Assembly: GCA_013297655.1 (NCBI GenBank)
Contig: JAAFHV010000079.1
Location: forward strand, 1-34,335
DNA: 34,335 nt
Origin: Myxococcales bacterium
Lineage (GTDB): Bacteria; Myxococcota_A; Polyangia; Polyangiales; Polyangiaceae
Reading direction: 5' to 3'
The translations under genes and the position numbers were made by a program. Numbering within the stretch: the stretch's first letter is position 1; the number at the start of each line of letters is the position of its first letter. The notes below the pieces were generated by a model. It worked only from the letters and a program-made list of their open reading frames with translations. It had not been told where the DNA came from and ran no database searches. Below, in pieces: positions 2,938-24,040 of this stretch.

Positions 2938-3843
2938 TCAAGGTGCCGCGCGTGGTCTTCGCCCCGCCGTCGACGCGAGCACCGTGGGGAGGTGCTCGAC
3001 GAGGAAGTCGCGTAGGGCCGCGGTCCGTGGAGGGAGCGGACGCTCCTTCGCGGTGACGAGAAAGAGCGGAGCGCCGCGGAGCACGACCTCGGGCACCACG
3101 CGGACGAGCGCCCCCTCGGCCACATCGCGCTGCGCGAGGTGAAGCGGCAGCAACGCGACGCCTCCACCCGCGCGCGCGAGCGCGAGCAGCGCGCCGAAGT
3201 CGTCGCATTCGATCGCGGGTGGCGGAGGGGTAGCGTCCGTCGCGAAGCTCTTCTTCCGCGAGCGAGCAGGCCATAGACCGTCGTGGGCGCCGAGGTCGCG
3301 AGGCTCCTTCGGCGCGCCCCTCGCAGCGATGTAACGTGGCGCCGCGAAGAACGCTGCCTCGAGCTCCCCGAGCCTTCGCGCCTTCACTCCGCCTTCCCCG
3401 ACTTTCCCGACCCGCAGCGCGACGTCGGCCTTCGCGTCCGCGAGAGGCACGAGGGCGTCGGCGAGCACGAGGCGGAGGCGCACCGCCGGAAAGCGTGTCC
3501 GAAACGCGGGCAATAGCGGCGCGACGACGGTGCGCCCGATGTCCGGTGGCGCGGCGAGCGTAACGAGCCCCGATGGCGTGACCGGTCGATCGACCAGGGA
3601 TTTACTCACTCGCTCGAGGTCGGCGAGCGGCCGCGCGACGCTCGCCGCCAGGTCTTCTCCCGCCGGCGTCAGGGTCACGCTCCGCGTGGTGCGCGCGAGC
3701 AGCACGACCCCGAGGGACTCCTCGAGCGCGCTCACGACCCGGCTGACGTGCCCCTTGTCGGTCCCGAGGCGCTCTGCCGCGCGCGTGAAGCTCCGCGCTT
3801 CTGCCACCGCCAAGAACACCGCGTAGTGATTCAAGTTCGTCAC
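2938..3843 (-). CDS. LysR-family transcriptional regulator
   Basis: 301 aa. The N-terminal winged helix-turn-helix, residues about 5-62, is typical of LysR (FLAVAEARSFTRAAERLG, then GHVSRVVSALEESLGVVLL and TRSVTLTPAGE). The remainder is the periplasmic-binding-protein-like effector domain (GLVTLAAPPDIGRTVVAPLL onward). The start is GTG with GGAGGC five bases upstream. It lies divergent from a lipoprotein gene; the 148-base gap holds inverted repeats that fit a LysR operator, so autoregulation plus control of that neighbour or of the downstream MFS operon is plausible. Effector unknown. Confidence 0.9.
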   Translation of the reverse strand: MTNLNHYAVFLAVAEARSFTRAAERLGTDKGHVSRVVSALEESLGVVLLARTTRSVTLTPAGEDLAASVARPLADLERVSKSLVDRPVTPSGLVTLAAPPDIGRTVVAPLLPAFRTRFPAVRLRLVLADALVPLADAKADVALRVGKVGEGGVKARRLGELEAAFFAAPRYIAARGAPKEPRDLGAHDGLWPARSRKKSFATDATPPPPAIECDDFGALLALARAGGGVALLPLHLAQRDVAEGALVRVVPEVVLRGAPLFLVTAKERPLPPRTAALRDFLVEHLPTVLASTAGRRPRAAP

Positions 3844-5141: not shown

Positions 5142-5171
5142 GACGACACTCCGCGTGGTCACCTTTCGACA
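5142..5171 (-). promoter_or_regulatory. ECF42-type promoter of the DoxX-like gene
   Basis: Read on the minus strand: TGTCGA (5171-5166), 17 bases, then TGTCGTC (5148-5142), 38 bases before the ATG. The sequence and spacing are the same as at the two DGPF promoters. A TGTCGA -35 and a CG(A/T)C-like -10 are what I recall being reported for ECF42 factors in Streptomyces. Sequence match seen directly; sigma assignment inferred. Confidence 0.7.
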
Positions 5172-5183
5172 CGCCGGGGTCGC

Positions 5184-5196
5184 ATTTCGCCGAAAT
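5184..5196. promoter_or_regulatory. 13-base palindrome upstream of the DoxX promoter
   Basis: ATTTCGCCGAAAT: six-base arms around a single C, 12 bases upstream of the -35 element and 13 bases after the sigma-factor stop codon. It could be an operator, or a short hairpin at the end of the sigma-factor transcript (no U-run follows). Confidence 0.3.
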
Positions 5197-5209
5197 CGTC
5201 AGGGAGGCG

Positions 5210-6472
5210 CTATTTGCAGCGCGCGGCGCGTTCGAGGAGGCGGTCGCGGAGGCGCACGTTCTCGGTCAGCGCGGCGGCACGCTCGAGCTCGGCGCGCGCT
5301 TCTGGGAGCCGCCCGAGCTTCTCGAGGAGGTCGGCGCGCGCGCTCGGGAGGAGGTGATACCGCGCGAGGGCAGGGTGCTCGCGGAGCGCATCGAGGATCA
5401 CCAGGCCCGCCGCGGGGCCTAGGCTCCGCGAGACGGCGAGGGCGCGGTTCAGCTCCACCACCGGCGACGGCGCGATCGTTCCCAATCGTGTGTAGAGCGC
5501 AGAAATCTTCGCCCAGTCGGTCGCGTCGAACGTGGCGGCGCGCGCGTGGCAGGCCGCGATCGCAGCCTGGATTTGGTACGGACCTCCCTCCGCCGCGAGC
5601 GCCTCCGCCGCGTCGAGCGCACGAAGGCCCGTCTCGATACGTGCATGATCCCAGCGACCTCGATCCTGATCGGCGAGCAAAATCGGCTCTCCGCGCGCGT
5701 CGGTGCGGGCATCGCTGCGCGAGCTTTGGAGGAGCACGAGGGCCCGGAGGCCATGCGCTTCCGGCTCGTTCGGCGCGAGCTCTGCCGCGAGCGCCGCGAG
5801 TCGCAACGCCTCGTCGACCAGCGCGGGGCGAAGCACGTCGTCGCCCGCGGTCGCGGAGTATCCCTCGTTGAAGACGAGGTAGATCACCTCGAGCACCGAG
5901 GCGATGCGCCGCCCGAGCTCGTCGCCGCGTGGAACCTCGAACGTGACCGCGGCCTCCGCGAGTGTCCGCTTCGCGCGAACGATTCGTTGCGCGACGGTGG
6001 GCTCCGTCGTGAGGAACGCGCGCGCGATCTCGTCGGTCGAGAGACCGCCGACGAGGCGGAGCGTGAGCGCCGCGCGCGCCTCCTTCGAGAGCACCGGATG
6101 GCAGGCCGCAAACATGAGCCGTAGAACGTCGTCCGCGACGTCCTCGTCGAGCCCTACCTCGAGCCTCGCTTCGATTTCGTCGAAATCGCACGGAAAGAGG
6201 CTCGATTTCGTATGCGCGTGCGACCGCTCCACCACCCGGCGGTGCCGGATACGATTGAGCGCGCGGTTCTTCGCCGTGGTCATGAGCCATGCCCCTGGCC
6301 GCTCGGGCACGCCCGATAGTGGCCACTCTTCGAGCGCCGCCACGAACGCGTCGTGGGCGAGCTCTTCGGCGAGGCCGAGGTCACGCACGACGCGAGTGAG
6401 GCTCCCGATGAGCTTGGGAGCCTCCTCTTTCCACACGGTCGCGATCGTTTGGCGTACGTCGGCGCGAGACAC
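5210..6472 (-). CDS. ECF42-group RNA polymerase sigma factor with C-terminal TPR-like extension
   Basis: 420 aa. Residues about 1-75 are sigma region 2 (GLAEELAHDAFVAALEEWP, PGAWLMTTAKNRALNRIR). Residues about 125-180 are region 4 with the helix-turn-helix LSTDEIARAFLTTEPTVAQR. Then follows the long helical extension typical of the group (VIYLVFNEGYSA, LNRALAVSRSLGPAAGL, helical repeats to the end); there is no separate anti-sigma gene, and the extension is thought to regulate activity. The GTG at 6472 gives the usual family N-terminus (SRADVRQTIATVW); an ATG at 6502 or GTG at 6505 would add about 10 residues. It starts 83 bases after DGPF protein 1, with which it is probably co-transcribed. 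Group membership rests on the extension plus the DGPF neighbours. Confidence 0.9.
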   Translation of the reverse strand: MSRADVRQTIATVWKEEAPKLIGSLTRVVRDLGLAEELAHDAFVAALEEWPLSGVPERPGAWLMTTAKNRALNRIRHRRVVERSHAHTKSSLFPCDFDEIEARLEVGLDEDVADDVLRLMFAACHPVLSKEARAALTLRLVGGLSTDEIARAFLTTEPTVAQRIVRAKRTLAEAAVTFEVPRGDELGRRIASVLEVIYLVFNEGYSATAGDDVLRPALVDEALRLAALAAELAPNEPEAHGLRALVLLQSSRSDARTDARGEPILLADQDRGRWDHARIETGLRALDAAEALAAEGGPYQIQAAIAACHARAATFDATDWAKISALYTRLGTIAPSPVVELNRALAVSRSLGPAAGLVILDALREHPALARYHLLPSARADLLEKLGRLPEARAELERAAALTENVRLRDRLLERAARCK

Positions 6473-6555
6473 CGCGCGACTACAGCAAAGGCGCTCCGGC
6501 ATCACAAGCGACGAGCGGGAGGGCGCCGATCTTCAGCGCGCGCAGCGGAGGTGAC

Positions 6556-6909
6556 TCACTTCGGCGGGGGGCCGCCCGGCTCGAACATCGGCAAGATCTC
6601 GCCTCTGCCGTCGCCCGCGATCGCCATGAACTCCTTCGAGAGCGCGATGGCGGCTTCCATGTTGGCGGCTTCGATCACCGCGAACCCGTCGATGAGCTCT
6701 TTGCTCTCCGCGAAGGGACCGTCGGTGACGGTGATCTTACCGCCCTCGTTTTGGATGCGGACCCCGTGCGACGGGCGCACGAGGCCGCCGGTGAGGACGA
6801 CGCTTCCCGAGTCGAGCATGCGCTTCGTGTATTCGCCGAGCTTCTGCATCGTCTCGGGCGAGGGCGGGGGTGCGGTCGGGTTCGACTCGAAAATCGCCAT
6901 GAATTTCAT
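6556..6909 (-). CDS. DGPF-domain (YCII-related) protein 1
   Basis: 117 aa. Small ferredoxin-like YCII/DGPF family protein: N-terminal strand MKFMAIFE, a helix, then VTDGPFAESKELIDGF with the eponymous DGPF at residues 63-66. The ATG has AAGGAGA at ideal spacing. DGPF proteins are the standard genomic partners of ECF42 sigma factors; their biochemical role is not settled. First gene of the probable DGPF1-sigma operon and preceded by an ECF42-type promoter, implying positive autoregulation of the sigma factor. Confidence 0.9.
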   Translation of the reverse strand: MKFMAIFESNPTAPPPSPETMQKLGEYTKRMLDSGSVVLTGGLVRPSHGVRIQNEGGKITVTDGPFAESKELIDGFAVIEAANMEAAIALSKEFMAIAGDGRGEILPMFEPGGPPPK

Positions 6910-6954
6910 ACGTTCTCCTTGGAGTGGGGGGCCAGTCTAAGTGCCCTTCCCCAA

Positions 6955-6984
6955 GACGACACCCGAGCGTGCGCCGAATCGACA
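6955..6984 (-). promoter_or_regulatory. ECF42-type promoter of DGPF1-sigma operon
   Basis: Minus strand: TGTCGA (6984-6979), 17 bases, TGTCGTC (6961-6955), 45 bases before the ATG. An A-tract on the same strand (A8GAAA, 7004-6993) begins 8 bases upstream of the -35 and looks like an UP element, a contact site for the RNA polymerase alpha subunit. Confidence 0.7.
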
Positions 6985-6992
6985 GCGGGGCC

Positions 6993-7004
6993 TTTCTTTT
7001 TTTT
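6993..7004 (-). promoter_or_regulatory. A-tract, possible UP element
   Basis: A run of 8 A, G, then 3 A on the minus strand directly upstream of the ECF42-type promoter; it stands out in GC-rich DNA. On the plus strand the same T-run has no hairpin in front of it and no plus-strand gene to terminate. Confidence 0.4.
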
Positions 7005-7032
7005 CGAGGCGGCCGTTGTCCTCGCGCACGCC

Positions 7033-7452
7033 TCAAGAAGAGGGGGATTGCGATCGCAGGTCGGCGAACCCGGCGATGGCCTTCTTCACGTCCTCCGGAA
7101 AGTCGTCCATTTCCTGCACCTGGCGAACCTCGATGATCTCGTTGTCGCCGGCGGGGCAGCGCGCTGCCCACTCGATCGCCTCCTCGCGCGAGCGGACTTG
7201 GATCATCCAGTAGCCGCCGACGAGCTCCTTCGCCTCCGCGAAAGGTCCGTCGGCGATCGTGGGCTTGCCGCCGGAGAACGACACGCGCGCGCCCATCGAC
7301 GGCGGGTGGAGGCCGTCGAGGGAGAGCAGCACCCCCGCCTTTTGGAGCTCCTCGTTGTACTTCATCATCTTCTCGACGCCGGCCGCGTCCGGCATCGTGC
7401 CGGGGACGGCGGTCTCGTAGCCCTTGGGGATCATCAGCATCATGAAGCGCAT
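7033..7452 (-). CDS. DGPF-domain (YCII-related) protein 2
   Basis: 139 aa. Same family as the neighbouring DGPF protein: N-terminal MRFMMLMIPKG, then TIADGPFAEAKELVGGYW with DGPF at residues 68-71 and VRSREEAIEWAARCP, typical of the family. The C-terminus has a Ser-rich tail. The start is the ATG with AAAGGA upstream; a frame opening 23 codons earlier would overlap the promoter. Lies 123 bases upstream of DGPF1 on the same strand, with its own ECF42-type promoter, so it is a separate transcription unit that can also read into DGPF1 and the sigma gene. Confidence 0.88.
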   Translation of the reverse strand: MRFMMLMIPKGYETAVPGTMPDAAGVEKMMKYNEELQKAGVLLSLDGLHPPSMGARVSFSGGKPTIADGPFAEAKELVGGYWMIQVRSREEAIEWAARCPAGDNEIIEVRQVQEMDDFPEDVKKAIAGFADLRSQSPSS

Positions 7453-7490
7453 CGTCGTGTTCCTTTCAGCTCGTTCGTCGAGCTCACCGG

Positions 7491-7520
7491 GACGACGAAC
7501 GCCTCTCGTGGATTTCGACA
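7491..7520 (-). promoter_or_regulatory. ECF42-type promoter of DGPF2
   Basis: Minus strand: TGTCGA (7520-7515), 17 bases, CGTCGTC (7497-7491), 38 bases before the ATG. An AT-rich inverted repeat (CGAGAA-AA-TTCTCG, 7528-7541) sits just upstream of the -35 and may act as an UP element or as the 3' hairpin of the gene ending at 7550. Confidence 0.7.
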
Positions 7521-22286: not shown

Positions 22287-23579
22287 TCAGGTGCCGTTGG
22301 CCGCCTTTTTCTCGGTCGCGGCGCGGGCGAGCAGCATCTCGCGCTCCTTCGTGTTCCGCGTCATCGCCGCCGCTTTTACGAGCTCGACGTGCGCTTCGGC
22401 GTGACGCCCGAGCTTCGCGAGGAGGTCCGCGCGCACGCTTTGCACGAGGTGGTAGTCCGCGAGCACGGGCTCGTTCACGAGCGCGTCGACGAGCGCGAGC
22501 CCCGCCTCCGGACCGAACGCCATCCCGAGCGCGACCGCGCGGTTCAGCTCGACCACGGGCGACGCGGTGAGCTCCGCGAGCTTCGTGTAGAGGGCGGCGA
22601 TCTTCGGCCAGTCCGTCGCCGAGGCGACCTCCGCGCGCGCGTGGCACGCCGCGATCTTGGCCTGCACGAGGTACGGTCCGTCGCTGCCCGTCTTCACGAC
22701 GAGGCCCTCCGCGCGCTCCATCGCGGCGAGCCCGCGCGCGATCAGCGCGCCGTCCCACAGCGCGCGGTTCTGATCGAGGAGCAGCACCGGCGCGCCGCCC
22801 GGTCCGATCCGCGCGTGGGTGCGCGAGGCTTGGAGCGCCATCAGCGCGAGGAGACCGAGGATCTCCGGCTCGTCCGGCATGAGCTCGCACAGCACACGAC
22901 CGAGCCGCTGCGCGTCGTCACAAAGCGCGGGCCGAACCCAGTCGTCGCCGGCCGACGCGGCGTACCCTTCGTTGAACACGAGGTAGACGACCTCCAGAAC
23001 CGACGCGAGCCGCGCGTGGAGCTCGGGGCCGCGCGGCACCTCGAACGGCACGCGCTTCTCGGCGAGGGTCCGCTTCGCGCGCACGATCCGCGCGGCGAGG
23101 GTGGGCGCGGGAACGAGGAAGGCCCGCGCGATTTCCTCTGTCGTGAGGCCCCCGAGGAGGCGCAAGGTGAGCGCGACGCGCCCCTCCGTCGGCAAGCACG
23201 GGTGGCACGCGACGAAGATGAGTCGCAACAGATCGTCGTCGATGGGCTCGCTCGTGAGGGACCTCCAAGGGTCGTCCATCGCGGCCTCGATGTCCGGCTC
23301 GGTGTGGCTAAGTCCTTCGGTATCTATACGTATCTCATCGTGTTTTCGCTCGAGTAGCTTCACCCGGCGCAGCTCGTCGAGGGCGCGGCGTTTGGCCGTC
23401 GTCATGAGCCAGGCGCCGGGGTTCTCGGGGATGCCGCCTTCGTGCCATGCCTCGATCGCGATCAGCATCGCGTCCTGCGCGAGCTCCTCCGCGCGGCCCA
23501 CGTCGCGGAGCATGCGCGCGAGCCCCGCCACGAGCTTCGGCGTCTCCAGGCGGAAGATGGTCTCGATGCTCCGTGACAT
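22287..23579 (-). CDS. ECF42-type sigma factor, second copy
   Basis: 430 aa from the ATG at 23579 (MSRSIETIFRLETPKLVAGL); the frame continues upstream through the GFA gene but only as a shadow. Sigma region 2 (GRAEELAQDAMLIAIEAWH, PGAWLMTTAKRRALDELR), region 4 (LTTEEIARAFLVPAPTLAAR), then the long helical C-terminal extension (VVYLVFNEGYAA, VVELNRAVALGMAFGPEAGL). Same architecture as the factor at 5210-6472 and clearly homologous. Instead of DGPF partners it follows a GFA-family gene by 44 bases, and the TGTCGA-N17-YGTCGTC element is absent upstream. Confidence 0.9.
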   Translation of the reverse strand: MSRSIETIFRLETPKLVAGLARMLRDVGRAEELAQDAMLIAIEAWHEGGIPENPGAWLMTTAKRRALDELRRVKLLERKHDEIRIDTEGLSHTEPDIEAAMDDPWRSLTSEPIDDDLLRLIFVACHPCLPTEGRVALTLRLLGGLTTEEIARAFLVPAPTLAARIVRAKRTLAEKRVPFEVPRGPELHARLASVLEVVYLVFNEGYAASAGDDWVRPALCDDAQRLGRVLCELMPDEPEILGLLALMALQASRTHARIGPGGAPVLLLDQNRALWDGALIARGLAAMERAEGLVVKTGSDGPYLVQAKIAACHARAEVASATDWPKIAALYTKLAELTASPVVELNRAVALGMAFGPEAGLALVDALVNEPVLADYHLVQSVRADLLAKLGRHAEAHVELVKAAAMTRNTKEREMLLARAATEKKAANGT

Positions 23580-23623
23580 CGGCGGCACGCTCACCCGAAC
23601 GCGCCCGCTCGGCAAGTGCCGCG

Positions 23624-24040
23624 TCAGTCGACGTGCTCGACGGTGATGCCAGGCATCGGCCCCCACGGATGGCGCCGGGCTTCGTAGATGGATACCTGCG
23701 GAGGCGGGAAGCCGGGATCCGCAAAAACGCCGACCGGAACGACGACGAAACCCGGGAGCCGGTCGACGACGTACGTCACGATCGCGCCGCACGTGGGGCA
23801 AAACGAGAACGTGATCTCGCCGCCGCTGTCTCCCTTTCGCGCATACGTCGACGAGGCCCCGCGGCGCGCCACGATCTGCTCGTCCGCGAACCTGGCCTGC
23901 ACGGCGAACGTGCTCCCGGTTCGCTTTTGGCACAGCAAGCAGTGACAGATCGAGACCCGCACCGGCTCACCGCGCACGTCGACCGCGAGGGCACCACACG
24001 AGCAGGAGGCGTGACGAACGAGCGGATCGGGGGCGTCCAT
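23624..24040 (-). CDS. GFA-family (glutathione-dependent formaldehyde-activating / CENP-V) zinc protein
   Basis: 138 aa. Cysteine zinc ligands lie in the family pattern: ASCSCGAL, CHCLLCQKRTGSTF, then FSFCPTCGAIV. Family members include the formaldehyde-glutathione adduct enzyme, but most are uncharacterised zinc proteins. The C-terminal stretch FADPGFPPPQVSIYEARRHPW is typical. Starts a probable two-gene operon with the second ECF42 factor, so it may act in the same stress response. No good Shine-Dalgarno before the ATG. Confidence 0.88.
   Translation of the reverse strand: MDAPDPLVRHASCSCGALAVDVRGEPVRVSICHCLLCQKRTGSTFAVQARFADEQIVARRGASSTYARKGDSGGEITFSFCPTCGAIVTYVVDRLPGFVVVPVGVFADPGFPPPQVSIYEARRHPWGPMPGITVEHVD

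Follow-up and report, generated by a model that had tools for sequence, protein, structure and literature searches.

The question raised by this locus is how far the reach of a single sigma factor extends; namely, whether an ECF42-type factor drives both of the DGPF genes beside it, itself and a DoxX-like gene, which would join a membrane protein to the ECF42 response. A sequence-only reading had proposed this from three strings that share one promoter code (TGTCGA-N17-YGTCGTC). What induces this widespread group, and what it does for the cell, are to our knowledge still unclear; the stresses tied to its member ECF-10 are oxidants, electrophiles and antibiotics. We analysed a stretch of 34,335 nucleotides from a Myxococcales bacterium (here, the window) together with the rest of the genome (9.9 Mb in 546 contigs, 97.6% complete) and loci from other genomes. 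We consider it very probable that the island is an ECF42 regulon read by its own sigma factor, comprising DGPF2, DGPF1 with the sigma gene, and DoxX_2, and that, within the class, DoxX_2 recurs as a satellite target of ECF42.

An ECF42 locus with three predicted promoters

All four genes of the island are read from the minus strand: DGPF2 comes first, followed by DGPF1, the sigma gene and DoxX (Table 1). The sigma factor has Sigma70_r2 (residues 16–79) and Sigma70_r4_2 (residues 120–171) domains and a C-terminal extension of about 200 residues, and the two YCII genes lie directly upstream of its gene, the open frame of which extends to 6505. ECF42 factors carry TPR repeats in the extension that are essential for activity; in the island protein, DUF6596 (residues 189–289) is the only domain that Pfam detected there. 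Relatives that are 52–63% identical adjoin DGPF genes in many phyla. The combination of sigma2, sigma4, a long C-terminal extension and YCII/DGPF neighbours characterizes the ECF42 group (PMC8999054) and is shared with the ECF42 factors of Streptomyces venezuelae (Sven_0747, Sven_4377 and Sven_7131) and with ECF-10 of Pseudomonas putida; unlike these, the window has two DGPF genes and a DoxX_2 gene, each with its own predicted promoter. The match of the DoxX protein to DoxX_2 (PF13564) scores 70.5 bits against a curated Pfam cut-off of 26.3. The promoter elements typical of the group (a TGTCG −35, a 17-nt spacer and a CG(A/T)C −10) are all present before DGPF2; the sites before DGPF1 and DoxX have them too, except that the −10 element begins with T instead of C. 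A scan of the island for sigma-70-type promoters found none.

Table 1. Genes and predicted promoters of the island, with positions in the window
Feature	Position	Strand	Basis
Predicted ECF42-type promoter of DGPF2, TGTCGA-N17-CGTCGTC	7491–7520	−	Exact match; 22.6 bits, the best in the window
DGPF2, YCII-related, 139 aa	7033–7452	−	Pfam YCII, 4.2e-23
Predicted ECF42-type promoter of DGPF1, TGTCGA-N17-TGTCGTC	6955–6984	−	Exact match; 21.2 bits
DGPF1, YCII-related, 117 aa	6556–6909	−	Pfam YCII, 4.8e-12
ECF42-type sigma factor, 420 aa from GTG at 6472	5210–6472	−	Pfam sigma2, sigma4 and DUF6596; relatives
Predicted ECF42-type promoter of DoxX, TGTCGA-N17-TGTCGTC	5142–5171	−	Exact match; 12.0 bits; equivalents before DoxX_2 elsewhere
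DoxX_2 family protein, 153 aa	4642–5103	−	Pfam DoxX_2, 1.4e-19

Outside genes, the strict promoter code is confined to the island

Pattern matching recovered the three strings, as exact matches, where they had been read by eye, and the distances from the motif end to the start codons (38 nt for DGPF2, 45 nt for DGPF1 and 38 nt for DoxX) agree with the 38–45 bases originally given. A scan that allowed two mismatches added no one-mismatch site in the window, and therefore the earlier statement that there is no fourth copy in the window also holds. Searching the whole genome with the strict motif, as the sequence-only reading had advised, returned four copies, compared with none for the reversed pattern. 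The fourth copy (C156:11779–11808) lies antisense within a 784-codon UvrD-like helicase open reading frame and was rejected as a promoter site; all copies outside genes thus belong to the island, and the strict motif is not scattered through the genome.

Could the three strings be chance or compositional repeats of GC-rich DNA? The genome is GC-rich, and 63 forms of the motif with up to one mismatch occur in it; however, the reversed-pattern controls gave counts far below the real ones, only 0.03 copies would be expected in the window by chance, and not one of 100 shuffled sequences held three. The motif is also conserved across phyla (see below), and for the DGPF sites a cross-species weight matrix already refutes a chance origin. 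On the strength of the shuffles and the genome-wide counts we rejected this explanation, which we regard as scarcely credible.

Conservation at ECF42 loci across phyla

Both the promoter motif and the type of locus are already known, and the promoter described for Streptomyces ECF42 factors reportedly combines TGTCGA with CG(A/T)C. Our comparison set comprised 80 ECF42-type loci of named GTDB species, spread over Actinomycetota, Pseudomonadota, Acidobacteriota, Gemmatimonadota and others (sigma factors 52–63% identical), together with the loci of the window's own family. Among 88 occurrences of TGTCGA-Nx-YGTC on the sigma strand with spacers of 13–21 nt, 44 have a spacer of exactly 17, compared with 7 at this spacer on the opposite strand, and these sites mostly lie 35–85 nt before a DGPF gene. 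The looser form TGTCGR-N17-YG(A/T)Y was found 120 times in the 1.7 kb before 151 ECF42 genes, versus 14 on the opposite strand, with the CGTC and CGAC forms of the −10 element about equally frequent. A weight matrix trained only on other organisms (27 sites at the ECF42 loci of named species, none from the window) ranked the three window sites first to third (22.6, 21.2 and 12.0 bits; the next site scored 7.3). Comparison of these loci indicates that the shared code is an ECF42-type promoter with a fixed 17-nt spacer, conserved at DGPF–ECF42 genes across phyla.

The class was represented by 290 genomes, in which the consensus occurs 103 times with a 17-nt spacer and 34 times in the N18 control. 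The genes behind the N17 sites (n = 84) include 47 YCII, 4 GDSL lipase, 3 AHSA1 and 2 DoxX_2 genes; RibD_C, with 10, ranks second among the classes that follow a perfect ECF42-type promoter, ahead of the GDSL lipases and AHSA1. Knowing which genes stand behind promoters of this type (DGPF, RibD_C, AHSA1, GDSL lipases and DoxX_2) makes the function of ECF42 testable.

Which sigma factor reads the sites

The proposal that the sigma factor drives both DGPF genes, itself and DoxX is largely upheld. Promoters of the ECF42 type are shared by DGPF2, DGPF1 and DoxX, whereas no motif stands in the 83 nt that separate DGPF1 from the sigma gene (its start taken as the GTG at 6472); the factor could thus activate its own gene only by read-through from a DGPF promoter. 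A single sigma factor is probably responsible for expression of both DGPF genes, of DoxX and, by read-through, of its own gene, with the promoter at 6955–6984 probably also serving the sigma gene. A warning against assuming autoregulation comes from Sinorhizobium meliloti, in which the DGPF–rpoE10 operon was not induced by overexpression of the sigma factor (PMC6180224).

The genome holds eight DUF6596 sigma genes (the island gene and seven ECF42-type paralogues), and the identity of the factor that reads the sites is therefore drawn from linkage rather than proven. The sites could be of the ECF42 type but be read, some or all of them, by another of the eight, for example the one at 22287–23546. 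Upstream of the DGPF genes of four paralogues, TGTCGA and the 17-nt spacer are kept, so that cross-recognition is possible; the −10 elements of these same promoters, however, read CGACGA, CGATTC, CGACCC and CATCT, the strict YGTCGTC form outside genes is confined to the island, and the second ECF42 gene of the window has no such site nearby. We regard a different reader as unlikely, and favour the factor encoded in the island.

Strict discrimination between paralogues by CGTC versus CGAC was considered and is weakened by loci such as L147 and L481 that have both forms; since single loci can carry CGTC and CGAC sites, we do not claim that the −10 element insulates the pathways. The second ECF42-type sigma gene of the window (22287–24040 region) is 55% identical to the first and is preceded by a GFA-family gene, not by a DGPF gene; a weight-matrix scan of the window found no ECF42-type site near it.

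At one of the paralogue loci (L033, on contig C201), a near-identical promoter cassette of about 75 nt occurs twice on the minus strand (3556–3584 and 5402–5430), once before the DGPF–sigma pair and once behind the sigma gene, before a gene for a flavodoxin-fold, azoreductase-like protein. Both copies have the unusual −10 element CATCT. The architecture is the same as that of the window, and the duplication suggests a route, copying of the promoter, by which a satellite gene may be brought in.

DoxX_2 as a probable recurrent target

To place the DoxX site in context, we sampled the DoxX_2 family in the class through 80 homologues and their flanks, counting a site when it scored at least 12 bits on the same strand within about 330 nt upstream. 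ECF42-type sites precede 21 of the 80, compared with 2 on the opposite strand and 0 in a downstream stretch, and the upstream scores are separated by a gap between 13.0 and 7.7 bits. The site-bearing homologues span six families and are thus not one clone. Among 60 genomes of the window's family, the strict motif also lies upstream of DoxX homologues in two (G033 and G039), and ECF42-type promoters precede DoxX_2 genes even where these are unlinked to a sigma gene. In two Acidobacteriota (L051 and L066), DoxX adjoins DGPF–ECF42 genes.

In a tree of 83 DoxX proteins there are two deep groups, one of which (52 rows) contains all 22 motif-bearing proteins; the presence of the motif changes state about nine times across the tree. 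The window protein clusters with those of L342 and L352 (support 98/89), and L342, from another family of the same order, has the layout DGPF–ECF42–[site]–DoxX, identical to that of the window and the nearest example encountered. A TGTC variant of the −10 element is common to the DGPF and DoxX promoters of L342, as it is to the DGPF1 and DoxX promoters of the window.

The first −10 base is T at 5 of the 14 full matches before DoxX genes of the class (L306, L342, L352, L364 and L366) and at 1 of the 27 sites from ECF42 loci of named species.

All 20 genomes with a motif-bearing DoxX gene hold an ECF42-type gene (E below 1e-40), compared with 13 of 22 chosen genomes that have a DoxX of the same group without the motif, the other 9 holding no ECF42-type gene. 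The association (one-sided Fisher test, calculated by hand, P about 0.001) is only a guide, because the genomes are related and because three or four further motif-less genomes with ECF42 were left out, the inclusion of which would raise P to about 0.002. Many DoxX_2 genes without a site occur in genomes that do hold ECF42, and with these site-less homologues the link between ECF42 and DoxX is recurrent, not universal. A separate DoxX_2 paralogue of the window's own genome (L300, on contig C72) is without an ECF42-type site; it follows the start of a sigma-factor-like match at a distance of about 1.1 kb.

The DoxX site scores lowest of the three, no higher than several relaxed, unrelated sites in other parts of the genome, so that its case rests on position and orthology and not on score alone. 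The DGPF promoters might accordingly be real and the DoxX site a chance or decayed match, with DoxX read from elsewhere; the T in its −10 element, rare at the named-species loci, would fit. Against this, only 0.03 strict matches are expected in the window, the same T precedes DoxX in the five loci named above as well as the window's DGPF1 and the DGPF gene of L342, and the site lies 38 nt from its start codon, like the other sites. We judge this explanation improbable, somewhat more so than a different reader. The expectation that a DoxX membrane protein joins the ECF42 response is thus upheld at the level of promoters and of co-occurring genes, which suggests that this small membrane protein has been repeatedly drawn into the response.

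Proposed mechanism and relation to known systems

We infer a scheme in which this particular sigma factor would recognize the sites, raise its own expression and co-induce DoxX. The factor would be activated through its C-terminal extension, by a mechanism for which reviews of the group are our sole source, and the active form would direct RNA polymerase to TGTCGA-N17-(C/T)GTCGT promoters before the DGPF2, DGPF1 and DoxX_2 genes. The position of the sigma gene behind DGPF1 would provide positive feedback by read-through. An ECF42-type promoter has come to precede DoxX_2 in many genomes, either beside the sigma gene or far from it. A broader version is plausible but falls a little short of being probable: DoxX_2 may give the ECF42 response a standing membrane arm, recruited or lost repeatedly in the class by gain and loss of promoters, and one genome may run several ECF42 pathways with a common TGTCGA −35 and 17-nt spacer but their own −10 elements, at least two of them with a separately promoted satellite behind the sigma gene (DoxX here, and the azoreductase-like gene on C201).

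A close parallel is the ECF42 factor RpoE10 of S. meliloti, for which we interpret the promoters in Table 1 of the published study as TGTCGG-N17-CGTC; the gene immediately behind rpoE10, SMc01149, carries a separate promoter of this kind and is induced when the factor is overexpressed (PMC6180224). The spacing between the −35 and −10 elements and the separately promoted target directly behind the sigma gene are as in the window, but the targets differ: a protein predicted to bind hydrophobic ligands and glyoxalase-like proteins there, DoxX here. DoxX-family genes also belong to the regulons of other ECF factors that answer metal or oxidative stress, namely Caulobacter sigmaF, Haemophilus RpoE2 and Neisseria SigE (PMC3511200; PMC7907618). 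The likeness ends with DoxX under an ECF factor: these are other sigma groups, the Caulobacter promoter is GTAACC-N16-CGAA, and the operon to which DoxX belongs there also encodes DUF2063, UPF0276/DUF692 and one more small protein rather than DGPF proteins.

None of the papers searched, a set without the primary Streptomyces ECF42 paper and the 2021 ECF reclassification, names ECF42 alongside either DGPF or DoxX; within that literature, a recurrent role of DoxX_2 as an ECF42 target appears to be unreported. A relative of DoxX is tied to oxidative and thiol stress through a membrane oxidoreductase complex of Mycobacterium tuberculosis (PMC7907618), and a recurrent membrane-protein target therefore offers a concrete handle on ECF42.

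Several ECF42-type promoters of the genome have an A-tract about 12–20 nt upstream of the −35 element, possibly a UP-like element (about 6997–7006 in the window, about 618–623 in L031 and about 5442–5450 in L033); the DoxX promoter of the window is without one.
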